Of a stretch of 64,000 nucleotides of DNA, positions 6,706 to 34,388 are shown piece after piece. This DNA is from Streptosporangium brasiliense (lineage in GTDB: Bacteria > Actinomycetota > Actinomycetes > Streptosporangiales > Streptosporangiaceae): the NCBI RefSeq assembly GCF_030811595.1, contig NZ_JAUSRB010000002.1:3534001-3598000 (forward strand). The letters run 5' to 3'. Made by a program: the position numbers and the translations under genes. The notes beneath the pieces are model-generated. The model saw only the letters and a list, made by a program, of their open reading frames with translations, searched no databases and was not told the origin of the DNA. The first letter of the stretch is position 1; every line of letters starts with the position of its first letter.

Positions 6706-6718
6706 CTCCCGCCCCCCG

Positions 6719-6843
6719 CCCCGCCGGCCCGGCCGCTCACGGGGTCCCCCGCCCCCTGGGATCGGCCGTTCACAGCGCCTCCCGTTTCCCGGGCCGGGCC
6801 GCTCACGGGGGTCCGCGCCTTCCGTGTCCCGCCGCTCACAGGG
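6719..6843 (-). repeat. Four imperfect repeats between the MoxR and vWA genes
   Basis: The motif GCCGCTCACGGGG or a close variant (CCGTTCACAG, CCGCTCACAG) recurs four times at roughly 33-base spacing, the last copy running into the end of the MoxR gene. The repeats read as decaying tandem duplications; a role in RNA structure or processing between the two genes is possible. Confidence 0.5.
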
Positions 6844-7687: not shown

Positions 7688-7788
7688 GTGCACTCCCAGT
7701 ACAGGACCGAATGTTGTTCTACCATAGCGGTTCGCCGTTCTCCGTTTCGAAGCCCTCCGGGAAGTGCGCTATCCTTCAAGAGCTTCAC

Positions 7789-7865
7789 GCGCCGCTAGCT
7801 CAGTTGGTTAGAGCAGCTGACTCTTAATCAGCGGGTCCGGGGTTCGAGTCCCTGGCGGCGCACCA
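7789..7865 (+). tRNA. tRNA-Lys (anticodon CTT)
   Basis: A full cloverleaf is visible. The acceptor arms are GCGCCGC and GCGGCGC, the D arm contains AGCTCAGTTGGTTAGAGC, the anticodon loop is CTCTTAA with anticodon CTT, and the T arm contains GGTTCGAGTCC. CCA is encoded at 7863-7865. No second copy of its 3' end or an integrase is visible nearby. Confidence 0.97.
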
Positions 7866-7867
7866 GC

Positions 7868-7906
7868 GAAAGAGCCCAGGTCGGCACAGCCGATCTGGGC
7901 TCTTTC
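7868..7906. terminator. Long hairpin after tRNA-Lys
   Basis: Two 18-base arms starting GAAAGAGCCCAG pair with a single G-T wobble around a three-base loop. The A/T-rich ends of the arms give a short U-run on both strands, so it can end the tRNA transcript and may also stop the minus-strand operon ending at 8058. Confidence 0.85.
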
Positions 7907-8057
7907 CATTGGACGGCCTTGGGGCCGTGTCCGGCGGCGAGGATGAGGGCCGCCGCTCCGTGGCGGAGGCCGTGCGACTTCACGGGCGGCAGGGTGGCGG
8001 GGCGGCAGGGCGCGCGGTCAGGAGCGGTCAGGAGCCGCGTGCTCAAGAACCGGGTGC

Positions 8058-10460
8058 TCAGGAGCCGGGCGAGGCCGGCGCGGACGGCGGGTGCGGCGGG
8101 TGCCGGTGCGGCTCGATCCTGGTCGGCAGCCGTATCGCCAGCAGGAGGGCCAGGAATCCGGCGGCGCCCCCGGCGGCGACCAGGGAGAGGGCGGGCCAGA
8201 AGGGATCCCCCCCGTCGCTCTCGCGGTCCTCGGCAAGGGGGACGGCACCGGACGGTGGCGGCAGGGCCGACTCGACCAGCCGGGCGGCCGCCGTCACCGG
8301 GGAGTCGAAGTCCTCCGATGCCAGCCTGCCGGGGTCGACGGACCGGGCGACCGTGTCCAGCGCGTCGCGCAGCGCCTGGCCGGCGGCCTGGTTGCACAGG
8401 ATGAGCAGCGAGCGGCCCGGTAGCCCGGCGAGCGCTTCCGATCGGGGATAACCGCTGTCACGGGCGGCCTCGCGGGGCACGATGGCGGCCTGCACCGCCT
8501 TGTCCCGGAGGGCGCGCAGCGGGTCGAGCGCCGGGACGGTCTCCAGGTGCAGCCAGGGATGGCGCTGCCGCAGCACCCGCTCGGACCGCTCCCGAGAGGG
8601 CCCCTTCCGGGGGGCGTCCGGCACCGAGATCCGGACCTCCTCGTCCGGATGCGCGAAGGCCTCCGTCAACTTCTCCGGCCCGATCAGGTCGACGTCGTAG
8701 ACCAGGACGTCCTGGTCCGGGACCGGGATGGCGGCGACCGCGGAGAACCCCTGCGCCGCCAGCGGATTGGCGGGCCACGTCGGCAGGGCGCCCGAGAGGG
8801 CGGGATCCGTGGGAGGGATCTCCATGAGGACCACGGCCGGTCCCGCGGCGGGTGCGGTCGTGGCGGGGGTGTCGCTCAGCCGGATCTCGGCCCTGTAGCC
8901 CGTCCGCCGGACGGCCTCGGCCACGAGGTTCCTGGCGAACTCGTCCTCCTGCCCGGCCGGGGCCTGGACGACGACCGTGCCCGGTTCGGTCCCGGCCGTG
9001 CCCCCCTCGGCGAGGGGATCGCCGCCCGGAGCGCGCAGCATCGCGACGACACCGGCGCCGATCAAGGTGATGGCCAGCGTCGCGAACGCCACGACCATGG
9101 TGACCTTGCCGTGCAGGCCCCAGCCGGGCCGTCTCCCGCGGTCGGCCTGTTCCAGCCCGCCGAGCGCGGCCTGCATCGAGGGCGGCACCGCACCCGCGCT
9201 CGGCACCGCGCCCGCGTTCGCACCCGCGCCCGGGGTCGGGCTCGGCACCGCACCCGCACCCGCACCCGCGCCCGGGGTCGAGCTCGGCACCACGCCCGGG
9301 GCCGGGCCGGCGGAGGCCGCCGGCCGGTAGGGCACGGTCGCCGCGGCGGGCGTGGCCCGGCTCTCGGGCACGACCTCGGGTGTCGCACCGAGTGCGCCTG
9401 CCGCCGGCCTCTCGCCGGTGTCTCGGCGCAACCACTTCCATCGCCAGCCTATGGGTGAGGTCCGCCGTGGCTTACCCGGGGCAGGCGAGGCCGGCAGGGC
9501 CGGCAGGGCCGGCGGGGCCGCCCTGGGTCCCGGGGGGCCGCCTCCTCCCGGAGCCGGCTCACGCTCCTTCCTCCACCACACGCCGGTGGCGGCGTGGGGC
9601 CGCAGTTCGGGATAGCCGGAGTGTTCGAGCAGCCGTACGGCGTCCGGCAGGTCCTCGGGGCCGAACGACAGCGGATTGGTCAGCCCGGCGAGCCCCCGCA
9701 GCATGTCCGCGAGCCGGACGTCGGGCCGGGCCAGGAGGCTCAGGCACACGTTCGCCGGGCCGTCCTGCCAGGTGATCTCCGTTCCGTGCCCCCACCGCAC
9801 CTCGTAGGCGTTCTCCGGAGCGTGCCGTGCGAAGGACAGCCTGATCTTGTGCCGGGCCGTGCTGCTGGTCCAGGTCGCCGCGGTCAGCCTCGTCCGCATG
9901 CCGTACGGCAGGAGCGCGGCGACGGTGTCCAGGAAGCGCAACCGTTCGATCATGGGAACCCTGTCCGCGCCCACCACGCAGACGGGCCGCCCGGTCAGCA
10001 GCAGCGCGGCGGCGCACCGCGCGTCCGGCCCGGGGACGAGGGCCGTGGGGTCGAACTCCGGAACGCGTACGGTCAGGGGAGGGGACGGGGTCACCGGCAG
10101 GGCCACGAGGGCGTGGTAGAGCGCCTCGTAGGACACCTGATGGCCGACCAGCTCCTGGTACGGGACGTAGAACCAGCGGGTGTAGACGATCTTGCGGTTG
10201 GTGGCGTCCCGGTGCCCCGACCACTCCTGAGCCGCGAGCACGATGTGGTGCGACACCTGCTCGCGCTCTCTGGTCGCCGCGACCGCGATCGTCACCTGGG
10301 GCAGATCCGCCGAGAGAGCCGTGGCGTATCTGCTCCTGATCTCCTCGAAGACCTCGGGCCCGAGGCGGTCGTCGCTCCAGGACAGCAGCTCGTAGTCGTC
10401 GTGGGCACCGGGCCGCTTCCCCTCCAGCGCCCACTCGAATCCGATCTCGTGGCCGGTCAC
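8058..10460 (-). CDS. Membrane-spanning GTPase-associated protein (GAP1-like) with extracellular domain
   Basis: The protein has 800 residues. Residues 1-330 form a cytoplasmic region (FEWALEGKRPGAHDDYELLSWS at the start) like the GTPase-associated GAP1-N domains of actinobacterial signalling and conflict operons. A Pro/Ala/Gly-rich linker with repeats such as TPGAGAGAGAVPSP follows. The first transmembrane helix is near 453-475 (MVVAFATLAITLIGAGVVAM), then comes an extracytoplasmic domain resembling a solute-binding fold (TVVVQAPAGQEDEFARNL). A second transmembrane helix lies near 757-777. The GTG start overlaps the upstream NTPase stop (GTGA). It probably links an outside signal to the cytosolic GTPase; the domain names are inferred. 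Confidence 0.7.
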   Translation of the reverse strand: MTGHEIGFEWALEGKRPGAHDDYELLSWSDDRLGPEVFEEIRSRYATALSADLPQVTIAVAATREREQVSHHIVLAAQEWSGHRDATNRKIVYTRWFYVPYQELVGHQVSYEALYHALVALPVTPSPPLTVRVPEFDPTALVPGPDARCAAALLLTGRPVCVVGADRVPMIERLRFLDTVAALLPYGMRTRLTAATWTSSTARHKIRLSFARHAPENAYEVRWGHGTEITWQDGPANVCLSLLARPDVRLADMLRGLAGLTNPLSFGPEDLPDAVRLLEHSGYPELRPHAATGVWWRKEREPAPGGGGPPGPRAAPPALPALPASPAPGKPRRTSPIGWRWKWLRRDTGERPAAGALGATPEVVPESRATPAAATVPYRPAASAGPAPGVVPSSTPGAGAGAGAVPSPTPGAGANAGAVPSAGAVPPSMQAALGGLEQADRGRRPGWGLHGKVTMVVAFATLAITLIGAGVVAMLRAPGGDPLAEGGTAGTEPGTVVVQAPAGQEDEFARNLVAEAVRRTGYRAEIRLSDTPATTAPAAGPAVVLMEIPPTDPALSGALPTWPANPLAAQGFSAVAAIPVPDQDVLVYDVDLIGPEKLTEAFAHPDEEVRISVPDAPRKGPSRERSERVLRQRHPWLHLETVPALDPLRALRDKAVQAAIVPREAARDSGYPRSEALAGLPGRSLLILCNQAAGQALRDALDTVARSVDPGRLASEDFDSPVTAAARLVESALPPPSGAVPLAEDRESDGGDPFWPALSLVAAGGAAGFLALLLAIRLPTRIEPHRHPPHPPSAPASPGS

Positions 10461-11479
10461 GACGCCTCCGTCGCCGGCCGGACCGCGGCGAGCCGCTGCC
10501 CCAGCCAGAGCATGGGCTCCACCACGTTGATCGGATGCAACTGCCCCCGGATGCGCGAGTCCTCGTCCGCCTCTCCGGGGAGCATGTTCTGGAAGTCGTC
10601 CCAGTCGAAATGCTTCGTGCGCCGGTCGACGTAGAAGCCGATCGAGGACGTGGCGAAGAAGCGGATCCGATCGGGGTGGAAGAACTGGTCGAGCGCGTTG
10701 AGCACCATGTCGGCGTTGCCGCTGGCCGACACCTGGCACAGCTCGTGGAACAGCTCCCGCGCGTCCTCGCTGGCCACCCGGGGCAGCCGGTACGGATCGT
10801 CGACGTCCGCGGTGAGCAGCCGCCGCTTCTCGGCCGTCTCCAGCACCCGGGGGTCGTCGAACTTGGTGACGCACACGGCGATGTGGTGCGGCAGCTTCCC
10901 GTCGACGAACTCGCCGGCGACGAGCATCCGCTCGGCGAGCCGGGCGAGCGGGGCGTGCATGTGGTCGAAGGCGTCCCCGAAGGTGAACTCCCTGATCGGG
11001 TCGAACAGGAAGACGATGCCCCGGCTCCGCTCAAGGTTGTCCAGCAGTTCCTGCCGGCGCGGGTCTCCCGACAGGTCCGGAGCGCTCGGGCCGCCCGCCG
11101 GGCGCCGTCCCGTACCGAACAACCCTCCGGGAGCGTCGACCATGCCGATGCCTATCCGGGTCGGCGGCCCCGGCTTGGCCTTCCTGCCCCAGAAGCCGGG
11201 CTTGCGGAGAGTGGGGCCGATCAGCGTCCAGTGATAGCGCTCCAGGGCCATGCTCGCCTCGGGGAACACCTTGCCCCGCAACAGGGCGTTGGTCTTCTCG
11301 ATCAGGTAGTCCGATGACGCGGGATCGGATCCGACGATCTTCCAGTCATCGTTTCTCCTGGTCAGGGCGATGAACAGCGCCGCAAGCAGGGTGGTCTTGC
11401 CGCTGCCGGGAGCGCCCCACATGGCGATGTTGTGATCGGGACGTTCCCGGCTCGGATCGGGCTGCATGCGCGTCGTCAC
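10457..11479 (-). CDS. P-loop NTPase resembling DO-GTPase2
   Basis: The 340-residue protein has a Walker A motif at its N-terminus (MWGAPGSGKTTLLAAL). Later come VFLFDPIREFTFGDAFDH and a probable specificity region VCVTKFDDP, whose TKFD is a TKxD-like guanine-recognition motif. This pattern fits the double-GTPase family found with GAP1 and vWA partners. The start is either GTG 11479, overlapping the upstream stop, or ATG 11467. It is the middle gene of a three-gene operon with four-base overlaps on both sides, so fixed stoichiometry is likely. Confidence 0.75.
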   Translation of the reverse strand: MTTRMQPDPSRERPDHNIAMWGAPGSGKTTLLAALFIALTRRNDDWKIVGSDPASSDYLIEKTNALLRGKVFPEASMALERYHWTLIGPTLRKPGFWGRKAKPGPPTRIGIGMVDAPGGLFGTGRRPAGGPSAPDLSGDPRRQELLDNLERSRGIVFLFDPIREFTFGDAFDHMHAPLARLAERMLVAGEFVDGKLPHHIAVCVTKFDDPRVLETAEKRRLLTADVDDPYRLPRVASEDARELFHELCQVSASGNADMVLNALDQFFHPDRIRFFATSSIGFYVDRRTKHFDWDDFQNMLPGEADEDSRIRGQLHPINVVEPMLWLGQRLAAVRPATEAS

Positions 11480-12909
11480 TCCGTCTCGTCGAGCAGGGGG
11501 AACGGGAGATGAACGGGGGAGGGGGCGACCAGGCCGAGATCGGCGGCCAGGCCGCGCACGTCCACCGCCTCCAGATGGGCCAGGGCCGCCGCGCCGATCC
11601 GGTGCCACGCCTGGTGCGCCTGGTCGGCGGGCTGGTCGCAGATCGCGCCCAGCACCGTGCCCTGCCGCTGCCGCAGGGCGGCGACCAGCTTCCGCCAGTC
11701 GTGCCGGTGGGGGCAGGGCAGGATCCTGGACTGGTCGGTGCGGGCCGGGTGCGGCGGGCGGCCTCCGACCGTGAGGACGACGGCGGGCGCCGGATCCGCC
11801 CGGCCGAGCCGTTCGACCACCACGGCGAGCATGTCCTCGAACTGCGCCGCGTGGGGGTGGTACGGATATCCCGTGGCCACCGCTCCCCGCTCCTCCAGCG
11901 CGCCGAGGGCGTTCAGGGCCTCTCCCGCGCCGGCCTCCCAGGCCGCGACCCGCACCGGGAGCTCCGGCGCCGACGGGTCGTACGAGTGCGCCGCGTAGGC
12001 GAGGAGGGAGACCCGGAGCAGGCCGCCGATCTCGCCGGAGGCAGAGCTGATCATCTGGCGTGCCCGGCTCAGCCGTTCCGCGACCTGGTCGTCCGCTCCG
12101 CAGACCTCCACCGCGCAGACGAGATGCGCCGGGCCGGTGCGCCCCGGGAGCCGGTCCGGGAGCGCGGCGACGAGCTGATTCCAGTCACGGGGGTCGGGCG
12201 AGAGCGCGGGCAGGCCGGTGAACCGCACCCGGCCGGGCCGTATCAGCTCGGCGGTCACCTCGTACCGGCCGGGCGTGACCGGGGCGGACTGGACGGACAG
12301 CAGCCGCGGCTCCGGACCCTGCCAGGTGACCACGGCGAACGCGGTGCCGTGCGCGCCGGCGGCCTCGCAGCGGAGGGCGACCCGGATCCGGGCCCCCGGG
12401 CGGGAGCCGAGGGGGAAGAGCTGCCGGCTGGTCAGCCGGGGACGGCTGGTGTCCGGGTCGACGAGGACGACGACCAGCTCGTACGACCTGGTCAGCGGGT
12501 CGTCCGCCATGACCTCCCGGACCCGTGCGGCGATCGGGGCTTCGGTCCGCAGCACCTGCGCGGCGGGATGTGCCGCACGCAGCCAGGCGAGGGCCTGCTC
12601 GACCTTCGGGTCGGCGGAGGAGGCGGCTACGAGGATCACGCCGGCGGAGGACAGGGCGGCGCGGGTCGTGCGTAGCACGGCCTCCCGGGTCCCGGCCGGA
12701 TCGGCGTCCCATCCGCGTTCGCCCGCGAGGCCCGGCCAGGTCGCCGACCAGCTCCGGCCGCGGGGGCAACCGTTGTCGTCCCGATGGAGAAGGAACGTGG
12801 TGAGGCCGTCGGCGGCGACCTCCACCAGGGTGAGGCGATCGGTGTCGGCGAGATCGGCCAGGGCCTGGGCGATCGCTTTCCTGCTCAGATCCCTGTCGGG
12901 CTCCGGCAC
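11476..12909 (-). CDS. vWA-like protein of the GTPase module
   Basis: The product has 477 residues and no signal peptide or membrane segment. The C-terminal half (HLVCAVEVCGADDQVAERL, then LRVSLLAYAAHSYD) resembles a degenerate von Willebrand A domain without an obvious MIDAS. The N-terminal half (LTLVEVAADGLTTFLLHRDD; AGVILVAASSADPKVEQAL) is unassigned. Companion genes of GTPase-centred systems often encode vWA-type adaptor proteins, which supports the call. It is the first gene of the minus-strand operon and faces the DUF4407 gene across a 261-base divergent promoter region. Confidence 0.6.
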   Translation of the reverse strand: MPEPDRDLSRKAIAQALADLADTDRLTLVEVAADGLTTFLLHRDDNGCPRGRSWSATWPGLAGERGWDADPAGTREAVLRTTRAALSSAGVILVAASSADPKVEQALAWLRAAHPAAQVLRTEAPIAARVREVMADDPLTRSYELVVVLVDPDTSRPRLTSRQLFPLGSRPGARIRVALRCEAAGAHGTAFAVVTWQGPEPRLLSVQSAPVTPGRYEVTAELIRPGRVRFTGLPALSPDPRDWNQLVAALPDRLPGRTGPAHLVCAVEVCGADDQVAERLSRARQMISSASGEIGGLLRVSLLAYAAHSYDPSAPELPVRVAAWEAGAGEALNALGALEERGAVATGYPYHPHAAQFEDMLAVVVERLGRADPAPAVVLTVGGRPPHPARTDQSRILPCPHRHDWRKLVAALRQRQGTVLGAICDQPADQAHQAWHRIGAAALAHLEAVDVRGLAADLGLVAPSPVHLPFPLLDETE

Positions 12910-13170
12910 GAGGAGTCCTCCATAGATATGTCGTATTAGCTGTGCTGCGTCACCGGTGTCCCGATTAGTCGGCGTATATAACGTTAGGGGGTATTTCTGG
13001 GGCGAGGAGTTGCGTCAGGTCCCCTCGATGAAATTCTATCGGGTATCTGTAAATGCGATATTGGGCGCCTATGATATCCCCTCCGGATGATTGGCGCTGA
13101 TATCCCCACCAGGGGGCGGCACCCTTCCAGTCGGCGCCGACGCGGTGAGACTCCCTTCCCGAGGAGGAGC
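12910..13170. promoter_or_regulatory. Divergent promoter region of the GTPase/kinase module
   Basis: This 261-base region is locally AT-rich (for example TATGTCGTATTAGCTG and TATATAACGTTAG) and separates the vWA-like gene from the DUF4407 gene. No RNA gene or clear palindrome was found. It most likely contains both promoters and couples expression of the two operons. The DUF4407 ribosome-binding site GAGGAGGAG is at 13161-13169. Confidence 0.5.
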
Positions 13171-18172: not shown

Positions 18173-18676
18173 GTGAGCGATCGGCCCTTCCCGGGCCGGC
18201 GGGGGAAGGACGCGGTGACGTTGATCGTTCGTGGACTGGTTGCCGGTGCCCTCGCGCTGGCCGCGGGCGTCCTGTGGGCCCGCCGGCGCTACGTGGTGGT
18301 CACCGTCGACGGGATGAGCATGGCTCCGACGCTGACCGACGGCGACCGCGTCCTGGTGCGGCGGCGACGGATCGGCCAGGTGGGGCAGGGCGACGTCGTC
18401 GTGCTGGAGCCCCCTTCCGATCCCGCCGGCGGATACGCGCCCGGACCGCCCGGGGCGGACGGCCGGCGCTGGAACATCAAACGGATCGCCGCGCTGCCCG
18501 GTGACCCGGTGCCCCAGGGGATCGCCGCCGGTGACGGCGTGGCCCACGTGCCCTCCGGGACGTTGGTGGTCCTCGGCGACAACCCGGACAGCATCGACTC
18601 CCGGCAGCGGGGGTTCTTCCCCGCTGACCGGCTGCTCGGCGTCGCGCTGCGCCGGCTGGGAGGGCCGGCCCTGTAG
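18173..18676 (+). CDS. S26-family signal peptidase
   Basis: The protein has 167 residues. A single N-terminal transmembrane helix (RGLVAGALALAAGVLWA) precedes the S26 catalytic boxes: GMSMAPTL with the nucleophile Ser, NIKRIAALPGD with the general-base Lys, and VVLGDNPDSIDSRQRGFF. It is therefore a membrane-bound Ser/Lys protease that cleaves secretory leaders, small for a housekeeping enzyme. It precedes the SARP regulator by 60 bases in a group that also encodes a cysteine-rich peptide and an exporter, so a dedicated role in peptide maturation is plausible. Purines (GGAG) lie upstream of the GTG. Confidence 0.85.
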   Translation: MSDRPFPGRRGKDAVTLIVRGLVAGALALAAGVLWARRRYVVVTVDGMSMAPTLTDGDRVLVRRRRIGQVGQGDVVVLEPPSDPAGGYAPGPPGADGRRWNIKRIAALPGDPVPQGIAAGDGVAHVPSGTLVVLGDNPDSIDSRQRGFFPADRLLGVALRRLGGPAL

Positions 18677-18736
18677 CCGGTGTCGTGGCGGCTGCCGGGG
18701 CCGGTCGACACGGGGGCCGTCGAGGAAGGCAGGACT

Positions 18737-21733
18737 ATGTTGTTTCAACTCCTCGGCCCGGTGCGGATCCAGGACGGCGACTCACCCGTACGGATCACGG
18801 CGCCGAAACAGCGCACGGTCCTCGCCATGCTGCTCGCGCGCGCCGGCTACGTCGTCCCGGTCCGGTCGTTGGTGGCCGAGGTGTGGGACGAGCCGCCGCG
18901 CTCGGCGGTGGCGAACCTGCGCACCTACCTCATGCAGCTGCGCAGGCTGCTGCCCCCCTCCGCCGACCCGGCCGTCGAGCGGCTGGTCACCTCGGACGCC
19001 GGTTACCTGCTCCGGGTCGCGCCGGCCGAGTTCGACCTCTTCCAGTTCGAGGTGCTCGCCGCGCACGGCCGCCAGGCGCTGGCCCGGCGGGATCTCGTGG
19101 CGGCTCAGAACGCCTACACCCGGGCGCTCGCCCTGTGGCGGGGCAGGGCGGCCGAGGACGCGCCGCTGGGCCCGACCCTGCGCGAGGTGGTCGCCCGGCT
19201 CACCGACCAGTATCTGAGCGCGACGGAGGAGTACACGGAGATCCAGCTCGCGATCGGCAGCCCCATGGCGGCGGCCGAGCGCCTGCGCGAGCTGATCGGG
19301 CAGCACCCCCTGCGGGAGCGGCTGTACGGCCAGCTGATGGTGGCCCTGTACCGGTGCGGTGACGTCGTCGGCGCGCTGGACGTGTTCGCGATGGCCCGCC
19401 GGACCCTGGCCGACGAGCTCGGGCTCGACCCCGGACCTGAGCTGCGCCGCCTGCACCAGGCGGTGCTGCGCCGGGACGCGGACCTGATGACCCCCACCGT
19501 CCCTCCCGCCGCGCCTGTCACCGTCTCCCCCGCCGCGCCGCCGGCCGGGGACGGCTCCGTGACCGGGTGGCCGGAGAACGGGCAGGCCGGGAACGGGCAT
19601 CCGCTCCCGCGCCAGCTGCCGCGGGAGCCGGCGCTGTTCGTGGGCCGGTCGGCCGAGCTCGCCCGGATGCTCACCGCGCTGTGCGCGGACCCGGAGCCGG
19701 GCGCGCCGCCGCCGGTGCTGGCGCTGCACGGCCCCGGCGGCGTCGGCAAGTCGACACTGGCGCTGCGGGCGGCGTACGCCGTGGCCGGCCGCTACGTCGA
19801 CGGCCAGCTCTACGTCGATCTGCAGGGGTCGAGCCCGGGCCTGCCACCGTTGCAGCCCGCCGAGGTGCTCGGCCGCTTCCTGCGGGCCCTGGGGGTGCCC
19901 AACGGCGAGGTTCCCGCGGCTCCGGCGGAGGCGGCCGCCCACTACCAGTCGTTGCTGGCCGACCGGCGAGTCCTGGTCGTCCTCGACAACGCCGTCGACG
20001 CCGCCCAGGTGGCGCCGTTGCTGCCGGCGGGCGGTGGCTGCGCGGTGCTGGTCACCAGCAGGGCGGCGCTGACCACCATGGACGCCGTGCCGATCGTTGT
20101 CGGGGTGCTCGACGAGGCGGACTCGGTGCGGATGCTCGGGCTGCTGGCGGGTCCGTCGCGAGTGGACGCCGAGGGCGGGGCCGCGGCCGACATCGCGTGC
20201 CGATGCGGATATCACCCGCTGGCGCTGCGCATCGCCGGCGCCCGCCTCGCCGCCCGCCCTGACTGGTCGCTCGCGCGGTTCGGCGAGCGGCTGCGCAACC
20301 AGCAGCGGCGGCTGGACGAGCTGCAGGCCGCCGACCTGGCCGTCCGCTCCTGTTTCGAGGTCAGCTACGGAACGCTGGCCGGCGGCGCGGGCCCTGCCAG
20401 GGGCGCGGCGGCGCGCGCCTTCCGGCTGTTCGGTGTGCTCGACGTGCCCGAGGTCAGCGTCGGGCTCGCCGCCGCGCTCCTCGACGTCGATCCGGAGGCG
20501 GCCGAGACCACGCTCGACGAGCTGACGGAGGCCCGTCTGCTGGAGCCGGTCGGCGACGGGCGGTTCCGCATGCACGACCTGCTGAGGCTGTTCGCCGCCG
20601 AGCTGGCCGTGGCTCACGATCCGGCGGACGACCGGGCACGGGCCGTCCGGCACGCCCTGGACTGGTACCTCGACCTGTGCGGGCAGATGAACGATCTGGT
20701 GCAACCGCACCTGCGATCCATGACAGGCCCGCCGGGTGGACGGGACGCCGGGGTGACCCTTCGGAGCCCGGCCGAGGCGGTGCGGTGGTTCGAGACCGAG
20801 CTGCCCTGCCTGGTCGCGGCCGCCACCCAGGCGGCCGGAGAGCCGGAGACGGCCCGTTTCGTCACCGATCTGGTGCCGTTGGTCAGGTCTCTGGCGACGA
20901 AGTGCGGATACTGGCAGGAGCTCGAGACCGTCGTCCGGCTCGCCGTCGAGGTGGCGCGCCGGCACGACAACCGGATCGGGGAGGCGTCCACGCTGGCGAC
21001 GCTGGGGGTGGTGGAGTGGCGGATCGGCCGGATCGACGCCGCTCGCGGGTGCATGCGCCATGCGCTCGGGCTCTGGCGCGATCTGGGTGATCGGGAGGCG
21101 GAGGGGCTGGCGCTGCACAACCTGGGCTGGCTGAGCATGCGCGTCGACGACCTCGACGACGCCCTCGGCCACATCACCGCGGGCCTGCGGCTGCTGGAGG
21201 AGCACGGGTCCAACCGGGTCGGCATGGTCAGGCACAACCTGGGCGAGGTCCTGCTGCGGCTGGGCCGTTCCGCCGAGGCGGCCGACTGCCTCGAACAGTG
21301 CCTGGAGATCCGGAGGTCGGACGGCGACTCCTTCGGGGAGAGCATCACCCTGGCCGCGCTCGGCCGCGCCTACTGCCTGCTCGACCGCCGGGAGCAGGCC
21401 CTGGCCACGCTCGCGGACGCGGTGCGCCACTGCCGGGAGATCGGTAACCGGGAGGACGAGTGGGAGGTGCTGCTCACCCGGTCCGAGGTCTGGCTGCGGC
21501 ACGGCGATCCGGCCGCCGCGGCGGCCGACCTGGCCCGGGTCCTGGAGCTGGTGGCCCGGGCGGGGGACGCCTACGGCCAGGCCGCCGCCACCCGCCAGCT
21601 CGCCAGGGCGCACACCGCGCTGGGCGACCCGGGCGCCGCCGAGCGGTACGCCCGCCGGGCCGAGGAGCTCTTCGCCTCGCCCGCCGTACGGCGTGATCCG
21701 GTGTTGGAGACGCTGCTCACCGCCCGGTTGTAG
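18737..21733 (+). CDS. SARP-type regulator with NB-ARC and TPR domains
   Basis: The protein has 998 residues. Residues 1-95 are an OmpR-like winged helix (LLGPVRIQDGDSPVRITAPK; LRTYLMQLRRLL). Residues about 95-240 are the BTAD domain (ALALWRGRAAEDAP; LIGQHPLRERLYGQLMVALY; ELGLDPGPELRRLH). An NB-ARC ATPase follows with Walker A GPGGVGKSTLALRA near 335 and VLVVLDNAVDAAQVAPLL. TPR repeats occupy the last 300 residues. This is the AfsR-like layout of pathway-specific or global antibiotic regulators. It sits directly before the cysteine-rich peptide gene, so activation of that group is the likely task. ATG 18737 is preferred for its upstream purines. Confidence 0.92.
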   Translation: MLFQLLGPVRIQDGDSPVRITAPKQRTVLAMLLARAGYVVPVRSLVAEVWDEPPRSAVANLRTYLMQLRRLLPPSADPAVERLVTSDAGYLLRVAPAEFDLFQFEVLAAHGRQALARRDLVAAQNAYTRALALWRGRAAEDAPLGPTLREVVARLTDQYLSATEEYTEIQLAIGSPMAAAERLRELIGQHPLRERLYGQLMVALYRCGDVVGALDVFAMARRTLADELGLDPGPELRRLHQAVLRRDADLMTPTVPPAAPVTVSPAAPPAGDGSVTGWPENGQAGNGHPLPRQLPREPALFVGRSAELARMLTALCADPEPGAPPPVLALHGPGGVGKSTLALRAAYAVAGRYVDGQLYVDLQGSSPGLPPLQPAEVLGRFLRALGVPNGEVPAAPAEAAAHYQSLLADRRVLVVLDNAVDAAQVAPLLPAGGGCAVLVTSRAALTTMDAVPIVVGVLDEADSVRMLGLLAGPSRVDAEGGAAADIACRCGYHPLALRIAGARLAARPDWSLARFGERLRNQQRRLDELQAADLAVRSCFEVSYGTLAGGAGPARGAAARAFRLFGVLDVPEVSVGLAAALLDVDPEAAETTLDELTEARLLEPVGDGRFRMHDLLRLFAAELAVAHDPADDRARAVRHALDWYLDLCGQMNDLVQPHLRSMTGPPGGRDAGVTLRSPAEAVRWFETELPCLVAAATQAAGEPETARFVTDLVPLVRSLATKCGYWQELETVVRLAVEVARRHDNRIGEASTLATLGVVEWRIGRIDAARGCMRHALGLWRDLGDREAEGLALHNLGWLSMRVDDLDDALGHITAGLRLLEEHGSNRVGMVRHNLGEVLLRLGRSAEAADCLEQCLEIRRSDGDSFGESITLAALGRAYCLLDRREQALATLADAVRHCREIGNREDEWEVLLTRSEVWLRHGDPAAAAADLARVLELVARAGDAYGQAAATRQLARAHTALGDPGAAERYARRAEELFASPAVRRDPVLETLLTARL

Positions 21734-21767: not shown

Positions 21768-21793
21768 AGCGTTTCGGCTGTCCGCAAAACGCT
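21768..21793. promoter_or_regulatory. Inverted repeat before the peptide gene, operator candidate
   Basis: AGCGTTT at 21768-21774 and AAACGCT at 21787-21793 form a perfect inverted repeat with a 12-base spacer, 20 bases upstream of the peptide start. Nothing else of note lies in the 79-base gap after the SARP gene. It could bind the adjacent regulator or be a stem in the leader. Confidence 0.5.
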
Positions 21794-21812
21794 TATGAAG
21801 GGGTGAATCCAG

Positions 21813-22004
21813 ATGAACGCTGCTCTGGGGAAGCTCGGCGACCGGCTGCTCGAGAAGCTGGTGCCGAAGGCGACCGCCAAGGCTGACACCTACTACTACA
21901 TGCACTGCTACTGCTACGGGACGACCAGGTACCAGAAGCTCTGCTGGATCGTCGGCGGCCAGACCGGCTGCGTGTCGGGCTGCGAGAAGCGCGGGACCTG
22001 CTGA
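21813..22004 (+). CDS. 63-residue cysteine-rich precursor peptide (candidate)
   Basis: The N-terminal 24 residues are an amphipathic, Lys/Leu-rich leader (MNAALGKLGDRLLEKLVP) that ends in AKA, an AxA cleavage pattern. The C-terminal 39 residues have six cysteines at 32, 34, 44, 53, 57 and 63 and an aromatic start (DTYYYMHCYCYG). GGGG lies upstream of the ATG. I recognise no family. Context (MauE-like protein, thioredoxin-like protein, ABC exporter, signal peptidase, SARP regulator) argues for a secreted, disulfide-bonded or otherwise modified peptide. A strong terminator follows immediately, so this gene should be expressed more than the downstream genes. Confidence 0.75.
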   Translation: MNAALGKLGDRLLEKLVPKATAKADTYYYMHCYCYGTTRYQKLCWIVGGQTGCVSGCEKRGTC

Positions 22005-22050
22005 CCGGGTAGCGCCCGTAGGTCCGGGGGCCGGAGCTGCCGCCGGACTT

Positions 22051-22102
22051 CGGGGGTGTTCCGCGGATCCTCACCGTAGCGGGGATCCGCGGAACACCCC
22101 CG
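22051..22102. terminator. 20-bp perfect hairpin between peptide and mauE-like gene
   Basis: Two perfect 20-base arms (starting CGGGGGTGTTCCG) enclose a 12-base loop, 46 bases after the peptide stop and 25 before the next gene. This strong partial terminator would raise the peptide transcript above the processing and export genes. Confidence 0.85.
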
Positions 22103-22126
22103 TCGCGGGGAACGAGCGGTGAGACG

Positions 22127-22669
22127 GTGAAGATGCTCTATTTGATGATCGGATGCCGGGCGTTGCTGGCCGGCGTCTTCGTGATCGCGCTGGCGGGCAA
22201 GGTCCGCGGGCGAGCGGCGTTCGACGAGTTCGTGGCCTCGATCGTGGCCCTGGGGATGTTCCCGCGCGCCGGGTCCGTGCCGGCGGCGTACGCCGTGCTG
22301 GGGGCGGAGGCCGTGGTGGTCCTGTCGCTCGCGCTGCCGTCCACCGTGCTCCTGGGGTTCGCGGCCGCGATGATGCTGCTCGCCGCTCTGACCGCCGGCA
22401 TCCTGGCCGCCGTGCGCCGGGGGCGGCGCGCGCCGTGCCGCTGTTTCGGAGCCTCCGCCGCGCCGCTCGGCAGGGCGCACGTGGTGCGCAATCTCGTCCT
22501 GCTGCTGGTCGGCGGCACCGGGCTCACGGCGGGGGCCGTCGCCGGCGACGCCGGGGCGCACCCGGCAGGGATCGTCCTCGCGCTGGTCGCCGCCGCCGTG
22601 GGCGTCCTGTCCGTGGTGCGTCTCGACGACCTGCTGGGCCTGTTCACCACCTCCGTCTCACCGCGATGA
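22127..22669 (+). CDS. MauE/DoxX-like redox membrane protein
   Basis: The 180-residue protein has four hydrophobic helices (LLAGVFVIALAGKV; AYAVLGAEAVVVLSLAL; LLGFAAAMMLLAALTAGIL; VVRNLVLLLVGGTGL). The signature Cys-Arg-Cys-Phe-Gly occurs near residue 103, as in MauE-type proteins. MauE is needed for methylamine dehydrogenase light-chain maturation, which involves many disulfides, and is related to membrane oxidoreductases. No methylamine dehydrogenase genes occur here, so the partner is more likely the six-cysteine peptide. GTG 22127 or ATG 22133 may be the start; both are in frame. Confidence 0.85.
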   Translation: MKMLYLMIGCRALLAGVFVIALAGKVRGRAAFDEFVASIVALGMFPRAGSVPAAYAVLGAEAVVVLSLALPSTVLLGFAAAMMLLAALTAGILAAVRRGRRAPCRCFGASAAPLGRAHVVRNLVLLLVGGTGLTAGAVAGDAGAHPAGIVLALVAAAVGVLSVVRLDDLLGLFTTSVSPR

Positions 22670-22711
22670 CGCGGGGTGTGACGACTTGAAGTCCTTAAGT
22701 GAGGTTGTCCG

Positions 22712-23221
22712 ATGACTTTTCTGATCGCCGCCGTCGTGCTGGTCGGCATACTCTGCATCTTCGACCTGGTGCTCACCTTCGCGGTACTGCGCCGCCTGCG
22801 CGAGCACACCGCCGAGCTGGAACGTCTCGCCGGACCGGCGCGGTTCGGTCGGTACGACCCGGGAGTGCTGGTCGGCCGCACGCTGCCCCCTGTCGGGGCG
22901 GACGGCGGCGAGCGGGCACGGCTCGTGGCGTTCTTCGACGTCAGCTGTGACGCGTGCCATGAGCACGCACCGCGCTTCGCCGACGCGGCCCGCGCCGACA
23001 CCGCCATGGCGGTCATCTCCGGTGACGGTGAGAAGGCCGGCGACCTCATCGAGATGATCGGTGGCGCGGCGAGCGTCGTCACGGCGGAACAGGCCGACAG
23101 CCTGGTGAAGGCGGTCGGCATCGAGGCTTTCCCGACGTTCCTCCGGGTCGACCCGGACGGCACGATCGTGGGAGCGGACACGGAGCTGGACGCTCTCGTC
23201 GGAACGGCCCGCGTGAGGTGA
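22712..23221 (+). CDS. Membrane-anchored thioredoxin-like protein
   Basis: This protein has 169 residues. The N-terminal helix (LIAAVVLVGILCIFDLVLTF) anchors it, and a thioredoxin fold follows with an active-site CDAC at residues 79-82 and a cis-Pro region (IEAFPTFLRVD). Such proteins are regularly paired with MauE-like proteins (MauD-like or TlpA-like roles) and reduce or form disulfides at the outer membrane face. Its stop overlaps the exporter start (GTGA), so expression is coupled to export. A GAGG lies upstream of the ATG. Confidence 0.85.
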   Translation: MTFLIAAVVLVGILCIFDLVLTFAVLRRLREHTAELERLAGPARFGRYDPGVLVGRTLPPVGADGGERARLVAFFDVSCDACHEHAPRFADAARADTAMAVISGDGEKAGDLIEMIGGAASVVTAEQADSLVKAVGIEAFPTFLRVDPDGTIVGADTELDALVGTARVR

Positions 23222-25077
23222 CGATGTCTCCGGTCTCGGACACGGAGCCGGACGGGGGCCGGCTCCGCCGCCTGTCGCGCCACGTCGCGACGGTGGCACC
23301 GCTGTGCTGGCGGGTCGGTCCCGGGCCGGCCCTGTCCCAGCTGGCGGCGACCGTCGTCGGCGGCCTGCTGCCCATGGGGACCGTGTGGGCGACGAAGCTT
23401 CTCGTCGACGGACTGTCGGCCGGCCGTACCGACCGTGTGCTGCTGCCCGTCTGCGGTCTCATCGTCCTGGGACTGGCCGCCGGGGCGCTGCCGCATCTCA
23501 CCGCCTATCTGCAGGCCGAGATGGAGCGCAGGCTGGACCGCCTGATGCAGGACCGCCTGTACACCGCGGTGAGCGGCTTCCAGGGCCTGTCGCGGTTCGA
23601 GAACCCCGATTTCCTGGACAGGCTGCGGATGGCCGCGCAGGCGACGGGCGGCGCGCTGCGGCCGATCACCTCCGGCCTGTTCGACATCGGACGCAACATC
23701 ATCACGCTGGTCAGCCTTCTCGCCGCCCTGGCCGTGCTGAGCCCGCTCATGGCGGGGCTGGTGGCGCTGGCTGCGGTCCCCGCCCTGGCCGCCCGGATGT
23801 CGCTGGAGAAGCGGCGGACGAAGATGATCGCCGGGCAGTCCGCGGGGATCCGGCGGCAGATCCTCTACTCCTCCCTCATCACCGACGTGCAGGCCGCCAA
23901 GGAGGTCCGGCTCTTCGGGCTGGGCGGCTTCCTCAAGGGCCGGATGTTCGGGGAGCTGGCCACCATTCAGGCCGGTGAGCGGCGGCTGGACCGGCGGGAG
24001 GCGCTCACCCAGTCGGTGCTGGCGGTGCTGTCGGCCGCGGTCAGCGGCGCGGGACTGATCTGGGCGGTGCAGGCCGCCGTGGCCGGCCGGCTGACCCTCG
24101 GCGACGTGACCGCGTTCGCCGCGGCCGTGGCCGGGACGCAGGCCGCGCTGATCGCGACGGTGGAGAACGCCGCCCATGTCCGCCAGGCGCTGTCCCTGTT
24201 CGGCTACCACGAGCAGGTGACGTCGCTCCCCGACGACCTGCCGCCGCCGCGGTCGGCCGCCGCGCTGCCCGCGCTACGGCGGGGCATCGAGCTGCGCGAC
24301 GTGTGGTTCCGCTACGACGACAGCCATCCGTGGGTGCTGAGGGGGGTCGACCTGACGATCCCCCACGGCGCGTCGGTCGCGCTGGTGGGGCTCAACGGAG
24401 CCGGCAAGAGCACCCTGATCAAGCTGCTGTGCCGGTTCTACGACCCGTCCCGGGGGACGATCCTCTGGGACGGGACGGACATCCGGGAGGTCCCACCGGC
24501 CGAGCTGCGCGCCAGGATGGGTGTGCTCTTCCAGGACTACATGAGCTACGACCTGACGGCGGCGGAGAACATCGGGGTGGGCGAGATCGCCGCGCTGCCG
24601 GACCGCGCCCGCGTCCAGGCCGCGGCCAGGATGGCCGGCGTCCACGAGACCCTCCAGGCACTGCCCCGCGGCTACGACACCCTGCTGAGCCGGATCTTCT
24701 TCGGCGACGGGGACGAGGACGACCCGCAGGCCGGGGTGGTGCTGTCGGGAGGCCAGTGGCAGCGGGTGGCCCTGGCCCGCGCGCTGCTGCGCGAGGGGCG
24801 TGACCTGCTCATTCTCGACGAGCCCAGCTCGGGCCTGGACGCCCGGGCCGAGCACGAGATGCACCGGCGGCTGCGCGGGCACCGCGCCGGCCGTACTAGT
24901 CTGCTCGTGTCGCACCGGCTCGGCGCGGTCCGCGACGCGGACCTGATCGTCGTGCTCGACGGCGGCCGGATCACCGAGCGGGGGACGCACGCCGACCTCA
25001 CGGCGGCGGGCGGGGAGTACGCCCGGCTGTTCGAGATGCAGGCGAGCGGCTACCGCGAGGACGCCGGCGTCCAGTGA
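23218..25077 (+). CDS. ABC exporter, fused membrane and ATPase domains
   Basis: The protein has 619 residues. The first 330 residues hold transmembrane segments of a type IV (exporter) fold (GLLPMGTVWATKLL; VCGLIVLGLAAGALPHL; ALAVLSPLMAGLVALAAVPAL). The ATPase contains Walker A GLNGAGKSTL near 393, a Q-loop (VLFQDYMSYD), the LSGGQ signature and Walker B LLILDEPSSGLD, then the H-loop VSHRLG. No C39 peptidase domain is present, so leader removal must be done by another protein, plausibly the S26 peptidase. It overlaps the thioredoxin-like gene by four bases and ends the operon. Confidence 0.92.
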   Translation: MTMSPVSDTEPDGGRLRRLSRHVATVAPLCWRVGPGPALSQLAATVVGGLLPMGTVWATKLLVDGLSAGRTDRVLLPVCGLIVLGLAAGALPHLTAYLQAEMERRLDRLMQDRLYTAVSGFQGLSRFENPDFLDRLRMAAQATGGALRPITSGLFDIGRNIITLVSLLAALAVLSPLMAGLVALAAVPALAARMSLEKRRTKMIAGQSAGIRRQILYSSLITDVQAAKEVRLFGLGGFLKGRMFGELATIQAGERRLDRREALTQSVLAVLSAAVSGAGLIWAVQAAVAGRLTLGDVTAFAAAVAGTQAALIATVENAAHVRQALSLFGYHEQVTSLPDDLPPPRSAAALPALRRGIELRDVWFRYDDSHPWVLRGVDLTIPHGASVALVGLNGAGKSTLIKLLCRFYDPSRGTILWDGTDIREVPPAELRARMGVLFQDYMSYDLTAAENIGVGEIAALPDRARVQAAARMAGVHETLQALPRGYDTLLSRIFFGDGDEDDPQAGVVLSGGQWQRVALARALLREGRDLLILDEPSSGLDARAEHEMHRRLRGHRAGRTSLLVSHRLGAVRDADLIVVLDGGRITERGTHADLTAAGGEYARLFEMQASGYREDAGVQ

Positions 25078-29992: not shown

Positions 29993-30997
29993 TTACCGCT
30001 TGGTCCGGTAGGTGGCGTCCCAGAGTCCCGAGCCCTGGTAGTTGTTGCGGAAGGTGTCATAGGGCACCTCAGAGGTGCCGTACCAAGGATCGGCCACGCT
30101 GACGTAGTCGACCCCGCCGGAGTTGTAGCATCCGCGGACGACCACGGCATGTCCGCCGCCGCCGCGCCATTGGACACGTACCCCGATCGGGCTGGGGGCC
30201 TGCAGTTCAACGCGGATCTGGTTCAGGCTCAGGGCGCCCGCCAGCCAGTCGCGGTAATGCCCGACCCGGCTCAGCGCTTTGTCCGTGTACCAGGGCTTGT
30301 TACAGCTGCCGGTGTCGGATGCGGCCGGACCGCAGCAGGTGTTGAGCCCGAACTCGGCGTTGACCATGGAACACTGGGTCCACGTGGTGGCCGGGTTGAA
30401 GAAGGCCGCGACGCTGACCGCGGTGGCCGACCAGCACCAGTAGGTCTGCTCCTGGTACTGCATCGCGAAGTCGAGCCGCTGTTCGTCCACCGCGTCGAGG
30501 ACGAACATCTCGTTCGGCCCGTCACCGGTGTATTGGCAGTTGACCGTCCCGCTTCCTGCGCTTGAGTACACGTTCACGAGATAGCCGTCCATGCGCAGGT
30601 ACACGTTCGGGAAGGCGACCGATTGCAGCGAGACCAGATCGTAGTCCCGGTTGACGACGCGGAACTTCTCATACGGTCCGGCGCCGCCGTACTGGCAGTT
30701 GACCGTCCCGCCTCCGGAGCTGGTGTACGCCGTCACGGCAGAGCCGTCCATCCGCAGGTACACGTTCGGGAAGGCGACCGATTCCAGCGCGATCGAACCG
30801 TCGACCTGGGGGCGGACCCGGAATCTCTCCGACGAGCTCGTGGGTCCGTACTGGCAGTTGACCGTTCCGCCGCCGGAGCTGGTGAAGGAGGTAACCGTCC
30901 GGCCGTCCAAGCGGAGATGCACGTTGTGGAAGGCCCCGGACCGAATCGTGATGGGGGTGTTGCCGAGTGCCGCCAGGTCGCCTGCTTTCAACGCCAT
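29993..30997 (-). CDS. Papain-like cysteine protease with trefoil-like repeats
   Basis: This 334-residue protein starts at ATG 30997 after AGGAAGG. Residues 15-165 contain three repeats each ending in GTVNCQY, resembling beta-trefoil (fascin/ricin-like) repeats that often bind sugars or actin-like surfaces. Residues 180-334 resemble AvrRpt2/C39-type papain-like proteases: the nucleophile in TYWCWSATA (Cys188), GGGHAVVVRG (His283) and VADPWYG (Asp303). No signal peptide is seen, so export would need another route. The operon partner lies 12 bases downstream. Confidence 0.82.
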   Translation of the reverse strand: MALKAGDLAALGNTPITIRSGAFHNVHLRLDGRTVTSFTSSGGGTVNCQYGPTSSSERFRVRPQVDGSIALESVAFPNVYLRMDGSAVTAYTSSGGGTVNCQYGGAGPYEKFRVVNRDYDLVSLQSVAFPNVYLRMDGYLVNVYSSAGSGTVNCQYTGDGPNEMFVLDAVDEQRLDFAMQYQEQTYWCWSATAVSVAAFFNPATTWTQCSMVNAEFGLNTCCGPAASDTGSCNKPWYTDKALSRVGHYRDWLAGALSLNQIRVELQAPSPIGVRVQWRGGGGHAVVVRGCYNSGGVDYVSVADPWYGTSEVPYDTFRNNYQGSGLWDATYRTKR

Positions 30998-31284
30998 GAT
31001 CACCTTCCTGCGCATGGATGGGAACGCGGCCGCTGGAGTGGGTGGAACAGGTCTCCTCCGGCGAGGGATAGCCGGGCACGCTGGAGACCCCGGAACACAG
31101 ACGCAGCGACCCCCTCGTCCTCCCGGTGCGGCCTCCCTAACATCCGCCGATCCGGCCGCCGAGTCACTAGCCACACCTGTCCGTATCAGGACATTTCGGG
31201 GAGACGGCCGCCGGCCGGGTCGGCCGCGCCCGGTCATGGTGATCGGCGACGTGCTGGCCATGGCGCCGGCCCGGCGCGGGCGCG

Positions 31285-33152: not shown

Positions 33153-34388
33153 TTGGCGAAGCTGTTTTGCGGGATCGACTGGGCCGAACACCACCACGAC
33201 ATCGCCATCGTCGACGACACCGGCGTCCGAGTCGCCAAGGCCCGCATCAGCAACGACGCCGCGGGCCTGCGCGCGCTGCTGGAGCTGCTGGCCGGCGCCG
33301 GCGACCACCCGGACGACCCGATCCCGGTCGCGATCGAAAAGCCGCACGGCCTACTGGTGGCCTGCCTGCGCGCGACCGGACGGCAGGTGTTCGCCATCAA
33401 CCCCTACACGGTCTCGCGCTATCGAGACCGGCACGGGGTCGCGCGCAAGAAGTCCGACGAGCAGGACGCGTTGATCCTGGCCAATATCTTGCGCACCGAC
33501 ATGGCCGCGCACCGGCCGCTGCCCGCCGACTCCGACCTGGCCCGGGCGATCACCGTGCTGGCCCGCGCCCAGCAGGACGCGGTCTGGGACCGCATCCAGC
33601 TCGGCCAGCGGATCCGGTCGCTGCTGCACGACTACTTCACCGCCGCCTTGCAGGCGTTTGCGCATCTGCGTAACGGTGGCGTCACCAGGGCCGAGGCCCG
33701 GGTCATCCTCGCGCCGGCGCCCACTCCCGCCCGCGCCGCCGTCCTCACCCGCGGGCAGCTGCGGGCCGCGCTCAAACGGGCCAGGCGGGCTCGCTACCTC
33801 GACCGAGACGTCGAACGACTTCACGCGATCTTCCGCGCCGAACACATGCGGTTGCCCGACTTGATCGAGCAGGCCATGGGGCACCAGCTCACCGCCCTGC
33901 TCGGCCAGCTCGAAGCGGCCTGCACGGCTGAGCAGAACCTGGCCACCCGCGTCGAGGAATCCTTCGCCCAGCACCCCGACGCCGAGATCATCACCAGCTT
34001 CCCGGGAGTCGGTTCACTGGTCGGCGCCCGCATCCTGGCTGAGATCGGCGACGACCGGACCCGCTTCACCGATGCTCGCGGCCTGAAGGCCTATGCCGGC
34101 TCGGCGCCGGTCACCCGAGCCAGTGGCAAGTCGCGGCACATCATGACCCGCAAGGTGAAGAACGACCGCCTGGCCGCCGCCGGCTACATCTGGGCCTTCG
34201 CCGCGCTACGGCCCTCACCAGGCGCGCGGGGGCACTACGACCGCCGCAAAGCAGCCGACGACGCCCATACCGCAGCTCCGCGGCACCTGTTCAACCGACT
34301 GATCGGCTGCCTCTATCACTGCCTCCAAAAGCGCCGAACCTACGACGGGTCCATCGCGTTTCCACCTCACCCAGCAGCCGTCGCTTGA
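33153..34388 (+). CDS. IS110-family transposase
   Basis: The protein has 411 residues. The start is a TTG with GGAGGA three bases upstream. The N-terminal RuvC-like DEDD domain shows GIDWAEHHHDIAIVDD, then VAIEKPHG, then RKKSDEQDALILANIL. The C-terminal domain has SFPGVGSLVGARILAEIGD and LKAYAGSAPVTRASGKSR with the conserved Ser. Both domains are complete and uninterrupted, so the element may be active. It separates the glycine-rich gene from a broken phosphotransferase gene. The right boundary is somewhere in 34389-34460. Confidence 0.95.
   Translation: MAKLFCGIDWAEHHHDIAIVDDTGVRVAKARISNDAAGLRALLELLAGAGDHPDDPIPVAIEKPHGLLVACLRATGRQVFAINPYTVSRYRDRHGVARKKSDEQDALILANILRTDMAAHRPLPADSDLARAITVLARAQQDAVWDRIQLGQRIRSLLHDYFTAALQAFAHLRNGGVTRAEARVILAPAPTPARAAVLTRGQLRAALKRARRARYLDRDVERLHAIFRAEHMRLPDLIEQAMGHQLTALLGQLEAACTAEQNLATRVEESFAQHPDAEIITSFPGVGSLVGARILAEIGDDRTRFTDARGLKAYAGSAPVTRASGKSRHIMTRKVKNDRLAAAGYIWAFAALRPSPGARGHYDRRKAADDAHTAAPRHLFNRLIGCLYHCLQKRRTYDGSIAFPPHPAAVA

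Follow-up and report, generated by a model that had tools for sequence, protein, structure and literature searches.

The MauE and MauD proteins are known for their part in the maturation of methylamine dehydrogenase, and the genome-mining study decRiPPter listed three candidate families of ribosomally synthesised and post-translationally modified peptides (RiPPs) in Streptomyces that contain a mauE gene, one of them also a mauD gene (Kloosterman et al. 2020, PMC7794033). The precursors of these families have at least eight cysteines; a role of the proteins in precursor modification was suggested, and the available sections of the paper give no experimental characterisation of the families (PMC7794033). 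Here we describe a related locus in a stretch of 64,000 nucleotides (hereafter the window) from the 10.5 Mb genome of Streptosporangium brasiliense (contig NZ_JAUSRB010000002.1, positions 3,534,001 to 3,598,000). Its centre is a small gene encoding a 63-residue peptide with six cysteines, which is accompanied by a MauE-like protein, a thioredoxin-like protein and an ABC exporter. Judged from the sequences of this locus and its relatives, the cassette is very probably a machine for the export, oxidation and cleavage of a disulfide-rich peptide, whatever the product may do.

The likeness to the decRiPPter families lies in the mauE homolog beside a small cysteine-rich precursor, an arrangement that is also found in the window; a transporter, a peptidase and a regulator were required by the decRiPPter filter (PMC7794033). 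Compared by description only, the locus differs in having a core with six cysteines (four to ten in its relatives) instead of at least eight; moreover, only Streptomyces was scanned in that study, and its available sections define no leader family, scaffold diversity, link to an S26 peptidase or mechanism. The methylamine dehydrogenase system, as far as its description in the same source goes, shares a MauE-family protein, a thioredoxin-like partner and a small substrate with multiple cysteines, whereas the six genes in the window include no such enzyme and the substrate is a short, hypervariable peptide served by an exporter and a protease of its own. Actifensin and other defensin-like bacteriocins have six cysteines, ABC transporters and, in some loci, several precursor genes, and the sizes are close (core of 37 residues against 39 here, leader of 32 against 24). 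However, their pattern C-x5-12-C-x3-C-x9-10-C-x4-5-C-x-C is not that of the window (spacing 1-9-8-3-5), the actifensin locus has a subtilisin-like protease, and the main text of the report contains neither the string "thioredoxin" nor the string "signal peptid" (PMC6989792). Finally, the TMcins combine a dedicated oxidoreductase, a protease and an ABC transporter for a disulfide-bearing bacteriocin, but according to the accessible part of their description they have a precursor with a transmembrane helix, an S2P-type protease, the DsbA-family protein TmcD and a single disulfide (PMC13252029).

The locus consists of six consecutive genes on the forward strand, in the order S26 signal peptidase, SARP-type regulator, precursor, MauE-like protein, thioredoxin-like protein and fused ABC exporter (Table 1). 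The first-pass annotation of this DNA had described the 63-residue peptide, its AKA junction and the positions of its six cysteines exactly, and the CRCFG-bearing MauE-like protein, the membrane thioredoxin-like protein with CDAC and the fused exporter on the same strand were all recovered from Pfam, motif, transmembrane and profile evidence. The unit it had drawn (21768..25077) was too small, since the peptidase and the regulator also belong to it, and the hairpin and a second set in the same genome had been missed. The precursor frame has a purine stretch (AAGGGG) 9 nt before its ATG, the MauE gene starts 122 nt past the precursor stop codon, and the exporter gene overlaps the thioredoxin gene by 4 nt. 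The five other genes between 18173 and 25077 could all be assigned, and no synthetase that modifies the core covalently (of lanthipeptide or other RiPP type) is among them.

Table 1. Features of the cassette, with positions in the window
Feature	Position	Strand	Evidence or remark
S26 signal peptidase I-like protease	18173..18676	+	PF10502 E 7.8e-21; TIGR02227 69 bits (cut-off 47 bits)
AfsR/SARP-type regulator (BTAD, NB-ARC, TPR)	18680..21733	+	PF03704 E 1.2e-38, PF00931, TPR
Precursor peptide gene, 63 aa, six Cys	21813..22004	+	ATG start; orthologs in congeners
Leader MNAALGKLGDRLLEKLVPKATAKA	21813..21884	+	conserved, charged, leucine-rich; without Sec-type hydrophobic core
Core peptide, 39 aa, C-x1-C-x9-C-x8-C-x3-C-x5-C	21885..22001	+	six Cys invariant in six orthologs
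Hairpin of 22 bp, no U-tract	22051..22102	+	between precursor and MauE genes
MauE-like membrane protein, CRCFG	22127..22669	+	PF07291 E 1.1e-23
Membrane-anchored TlpA/ResA-like thioredoxin, CDAC	22712..23221	+	profile match to PDB, best E 2.1e-6
Fused ABC exporter (transmembrane and nucleotide-binding domains), no C39 protease	23218..25077	+	PF00005 E 3.9e-29, PF00664 E 1.9e-6

The leader, which terminates in AKA (residues 22-24), and not the core is what connects the members of the family. It is hardly hydrophobic (maximum hydropathy over 8 residues 0.66; longest run free of D/E/K/R/H/N/Q four residues), and no h-region of the Sec type is found in it. Positions M1, L5, L8, D10, L16, P18, A22 and A24 are common to all 14 aligned sequences, while the cores diverge, and the leader type of the family can be written as L..LgDrlL..lvP..AxA. 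A hidden Markov model built from 68 leaders, without any letters of the core, recovers the window precursor at E 4e-14; with the limit at E 1 it has no second hit in the window. The core, with cysteines at precursor positions 32, 34, 44, 53, 57 and 63, has a computed isoelectric point of 8.3 and a reduced average mass of 4499.1 Da. Neither Pfam nor NCBIfam contains a family for the peptide, and its profile has no match in the PDB; PADLOC returned nothing for the peptide, MauE, the thioredoxin or the S26 protein. Besides the peptide itself, a search of the protein database with the single sequence yielded five further peptides, and all four of those with a named source come from Streptosporangium. 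The same query found no match in the plasmid collection. Such a search understates the family, so that profile and anchored searches were needed.

The thioredoxin was chosen as sole anchor for the first of these surveys in order to lessen circularity. A profile of 20 sequences (A4; L062 was excluded because of a stop in the chosen frame) found 58 matches, which are spread over 30 of the 394 class genomes, the window's own included, and over 11 of 137 genera. The matches correspond to 56 loci, as L175/L179 and L176/L178 are pairs of matches within one locus; the cassettes concerned have two thioredoxin genes, unlike most loci, together with an eight-cysteine core and a CPCFG-type MauE. Precursors were called with the leader-only model at E < 0.05, leader hits in frames that ran on for more than about 115-125 residues beyond the leader being skipped. 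A leader-type precursor was thus found beside 48 of the 58 matches (46 of the 56 loci), with the qualification that in 7 of the 55 precursor hits the leader is identical to one used to train the model. The remainder of the cassette recurs as well: the ABC exporter accompanies 55 of the 58 matches, the S26 gene 50 and a SARP-type regulator 31, and MauE lies near the thioredoxin in 49 by tblastn and in 55 by its CxCFG motif. The precursor-positive loci of this set carry one to three precursors. Seven different leader-bearing six-cysteine precursors were seen in locus L073 (G275:C28:342000-360000, 7079-12962), with thioredoxin, ABC, S26 and MauE genes alongside.

In four of the 58 matches (L183-L186, from one genus) the MauE motif and the match to the thioredoxin profile are located in one protein of 295-328 aa. 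Pfam was run on two of the four, L183 and L184, and detected MauE at E 2e-18 and 1e-18, the remainder giving sub-threshold matches of redoxin type only. The fusion of the two in a single protein argues for a working pair. When 296 genomes of the phylum were searched with the thioredoxin profile, three matched; one of these matches lies outside the class and is a TlpA-like protein by eye, with no leader peptide in its flanks. Nine records of the plasmid collection had a thioredoxin match. Six were examined (four from Streptomyces, one each from Nonomuraea and Embleya; H3, H4 and H8 were left out), and all six have MauE, thioredoxin, ABC and S26 genes as well as a cysteine-rich precursor, which was recognised through the leader pattern in one and by eye in five.

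With MauE as anchor, 66 loci were found in named genomes, 54 of them with the thioredoxin and 51 with both thioredoxin and exporter. A leader-type precursor (E < 0.05) is present in 46 of these 51, several of the loci belonging to, or stemming from the same species as, those used for training. Where the thioredoxin is present and the exporter is not, the precursor was found in none of three loci (six-cysteine candidates lie below the threshold in L217 and L220), and where the thioredoxin is absent it was found in one of twelve (L245, five cysteines). The 46 precursor-positive loci span 15 genera: Streptosporangium, Nonomuraea, Planobispora, Planomonospora, Microtetraspora, Sphaerisporangium, Spongiactinospora, Actinomadura, Streptomyces, Micromonospora, Dactylosporangium, Actinoplanes, Amycolatopsis, Nocardia and Kribbella. 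It had been reasoned in the first-pass annotation that conserved cysteines recurring next to the same genes would support the system, and that it would fail if homologous neighbours lacked the peptide or the peptide was not conserved or not expressed. The recurrence was seen from three anchors (peptide, thioredoxin and MauE), and with a precursor in 46 of 51 loci the proposal survived.

The cores themselves are very diverse. Both anchored surveys together gave 103 hits to the leader model, which were reduced to 63 by removing cores more than 70% identical. These cores have 23-75 residues (median 39) and contain four (2 cores), five (1), six (32), seven (1), eight (25) or ten (2) cysteines. The number is even in 61 of 63. 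The remaining small open reading frames (ORFs) of the thioredoxin-anchored loci that have four or more cysteines served as controls, and among these it is even in 33 of 47 (Fisher p 1.6e-4). The net charge is zero or positive in 60 of the 63. In contrast to the expectation that the cysteine spacing would mark the family, as the first-pass annotation had it, there are 59 spacing patterns among the 63 cores and the 1-9-8-3-5 of the window occurs once; the signature is the leader. The junction between leader and core is A-x-A in 98 of the 103 hits and V-x-A in five, the training leaders of the model having themselves been cut at AxA.

The peptide alone was matched at E <= 0.001 in 10 of 100 genomes, its own included. 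The complete cassette is present in six of the 15 congeners searched (loci L014-L019), five of which have a peptide 70-86% identical to that of the window and the sixth one 62% identical over 53 residues. In a seventh congener (G009, L021 = G009:C5:284000-300000, around 6361-8142) the regulator, the precursor and the exporter are reduced to adjoining fragments, and MauE and thioredoxin are missing, a remnant that is consistent with decay by deletion or with an assembly problem. The family-wide search matched 130 of 341 genomes, weak hits counted in. Paralogous sets with quite different cores were seen in G023, G005, G012 and the window's own genome, and the S26 and regulator genes were not detected in every set; the second, divergent peptide-MauE-thioredoxin-ABC set of the window genome has neither in the 16 kb around it. 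Three further MauE genes of this genome (L253, L256 and L257) have no leader precursor in the flanks examined. At L253 the MauE gene adjoins a gene for a thioredoxin-fold protein, DsbA-like by eye.

The ratio of non-synonymous to synonymous substitution rates (dN/dS, pooled, Nei-Gojobori) was determined for the window and L014-L018, the most divergent ortholog, L019, being excluded here and from the count of hairpin pairs. All six core cysteines are invariant in these six orthologs. The ratio is 0.30 (0.07-0.78) for the leader, 1.20 (0.58-2.71) for the whole core and 1.51 (bootstrap 0.82-3.78) for the core without its cysteines. The core thus exceeds both the leader and the machinery, for which values of 0.46 (MauE), 0.58 (thioredoxin) and 0.33 (ABC) were obtained.

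In the MauE-like protein, CRCFG is found at residues 104-108, with the CxC between predicted membrane segments. The thioredoxin-like protein has one N-terminal transmembrane segment and CDAC at 79-82; its single sequence gave only sub-threshold Pfam thioredoxin matches, and a nine-row profile (A2) matches TlpA/ResA-type structures. CxxC is present in all 37 listed thioredoxins, and C79, C82 and P141 are invariant across 20 sequences. The S26 protein has one N-terminal transmembrane segment and has kept the motifs SMAPT (49), KRIAALPGD (103) and GDN (135). For the exporter Pfam gave 16 hits at E values of up to 1 and none of them is a C39 domain, which sets the locus apart from the C39, double-glycine type of bacteriocin system. 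Pairs of a membrane redox protein and a thioredoxin-fold partner, sometimes fused, are familiar as VKOR-thioredoxin and DsbB/DsbA, where DsbB or VKOR re-oxidises the DsbA-type partner; the likeness of these to MauE is one of functional analogy and not of established homology.

A further element is the hairpin between the precursor and MauE genes. The fold of this intergenic stretch has a z of -5.1 against shuffles, and a long hairpin is predicted at the same place in all seven loci folded (window and L014-L019), in L019 in an unrelated sequence. In the six-row alignment 97.6% of the cells are paired and three pairs are changed on both sides, values that are reached by 6 to 9 of 500 shuffles. 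More generally, 27 of the 55 precursors are followed within 100 nt by an unbroken stem of 12 bp or more, and the same was seen in 1 of 165 random segments, where one locus (L176/L178) was counted twice among the 27 and the random 100-nt controls were not matched for gene ends. We infer that the hairpin acts as an attenuator or stabiliser giving an excess of precursor over machinery. Elsewhere in the window, the reverse strand at 29993-31261 encodes by eye beta-trefoil-like repeats (LRMDG...SGGGTVNCQY) and a C-terminal papain/C39-like cysteine protease region (YWCWSA...GGGHAVVV), and an IS110-like transposase gene is seen at 33153-34388 on the forward strand.

Taken together, these features suggest the following course of events. 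The regulator would turn the cassette on, and the precursor would be produced in excess by means of the hairpin behind its gene. Its non-Sec leader would direct it to the dedicated ABC exporter; considering that the leader lacks a Sec-type core and that the cassette has an exporter of its own, this is the economical reading. Beyond the membrane the anchored thioredoxin-like protein would transfer or shuffle the disulfides of the core, and MauE would re-oxidise it and pass the electrons into the membrane, in analogy to the action of DsbB or VKOR on DsbA. The S26 peptidase would then cut the leader off after AxA. The even cysteine counts, the CxxC and P141 of the thioredoxin, the CxC of MauE and the fusion argue for disulfide formation outside the membrane. 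Moreover, one leader type serves dozens of scaffolds, which makes the leader, rather than the core, the probable target of recognition by the machinery. We infer the export route, the direction of electron flow, the cleavage site and the disulfides from sequence. The suggestion in the first-pass annotation that these proteins oxidise and export the peptide is supported by the cysteine parity, by the MauE-thioredoxin fusions and by the neighbouring S26 gene, which fits the AxA. At the sequence level the locus also has what is generally expected of RiPP-like systems: a leader that is conserved, a core that varies, and genes dedicated to export, proteolysis and modification. With somewhat less confidence, though still as the better supposition, we take the family to be an actinomycete-wide superfamily of secreted disulfide-rich peptides, in which one leader type and a scaffold-indifferent MauE-thioredoxin-ABC-S26 machine provide general-purpose oxidative folding of knotted peptides independent of Sec and Dsb, cores with 4, 6, 8 or 10 cysteines being swapped. 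Such a superfamily would also offer bacterial mini-protein antagonists in large and so far untapped numbers.

Several observations weigh against the proposed machine. Ten of the 58 thioredoxin-anchored matches lack a precursor according to the leader model: L171 (10 cysteines) and L180 (six) have a sub-threshold precursor, L183-L186 an ORF of eight cysteines whose leader is of another kind, L159 and L168 weak candidates, and L152 and L182 none. The same holds for five of the 51 complete MauE-anchored loci, with sub-threshold six-cysteine candidates in L205, L223 and L234 and none in L246 and L250. No S26 gene was detected in the four loci with a MauE-thioredoxin fusion, and eight of the 15 congeners have no peptide match at E 0.001. 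The control ORFs are already 70% even, because four-cysteine ORFs dominate among them; the excess of even counts is real, yet less extreme than against a coin-toss null. Odd counts do occur, in L202 (7), L245 (5) and L228 (9), the last of which was merged with a relative of ten cysteines when redundancy was removed. L228, from Nocardia tenerifensis, has a Tyr where two ten-cysteine Nocardia relatives carry a Cys. The bootstrap interval of the core dN/dS includes 1, and positive selection on the core is for this reason suggested rather than proven. In addition, the PDB contains no solved structure matching the MauE profile, so that the electron route proposed for MauE rests on analogy.

As to the product, our preference is by a narrow margin for an antimicrobial, bacteriocin-like antagonistic peptide, given the diversification and charge of the cores and the multiple precursors per locus. 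The absence of an evident immunity gene among the six genes in the window speaks against this and suits the main competing view of the function, namely that the same machinery makes an intraspecies signal or developmental hormone. That view, which is compatible with the machine, also draws on the SARP/TPR-type regulators in 31 of the 58 matches. Nevertheless, a core dN/dS near or above 1 next to a constrained leader has the look of an arms race, and neither the seven different precursors in L073 nor the mostly neutral to positive cores are what a signal would lead one to expect; we consider a signal unlikely, although clearly the strongest of the alternatives.

Alternatively, the cysteines could bind copper, zinc or iron, the redox proteins keeping the thiols reduced for metal loading, in which case the product would be a metallophore or a metal-storage peptide. 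TlpA-like proteins are often reductases, and the high cysteine content and even counts would suit metal sites, so that the parity counted above in favour of disulfides is also compatible with metal binding. However, the 59 spacing patterns among 63 cores do not resemble a metal site under conservation, no metal transporter is among the six genes in the window (other loci were scanned for cassette genes only), and MauE has been linked to disulfide formation in the relevant part of PMC7794033; we regard a metal peptide as improbable. Still more improbable is that the peptide belongs to a secreted enzyme as its small subunit, matured by MauE and the thioredoxin in the way of the methylamine dehydrogenase light chain, in the maturation of which MauE and MauD act according to the same source (PMC7794033). 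The cores are short and hypervariable, and within the same scope no catalytic partner is found among the six genes; a search of the genome for the light chain (PF02975) was negative, a weak argument as the same search was silent in 14 of 14 controls. A chance ORF adjoining unrelated membrane redox and ABC genes, for which the lack of a Pfam or NCBIfam family could be cited, has practically no probability left in view of the same neighbours in 15 named genera and of a leader model that picks out this precursor alone in the window.

Leader-guided disulfide peptides are a known kind, and a corner of the present family was probably predicted already. The description of the system as new in the first-pass annotation should be tempered, because decRiPPter had listed MauE-containing candidate families of Streptomyces (PMC7794033, in its available sections); what stands is that the leader family and its breadth appear undescribed. 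Beyond that paper, MauE is not described together with a peptide precursor in the top-ranked results of the open-licence literature, and within the literature searched the leader, the breadth, the scaffold diversity, the S26 link, the fusion and the hairpin appear to be undescribed. If the proposed machine is real, actinomycetes of at least 15 named genera would share disulfide-rich peptides that form one family by their leader and comprise dozens of cysteine scaffolds, and the MauE family would gain a role beyond methylamine metabolism. The question of how actinomycetes fold extracellular peptides with multiple disulfides would then become directly testable, and the scaffold-indifferent machinery could be a production platform for knotted peptides. 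The same machine with very different peptides in many soil bacteria may yield unknown antimicrobial or signalling molecules.

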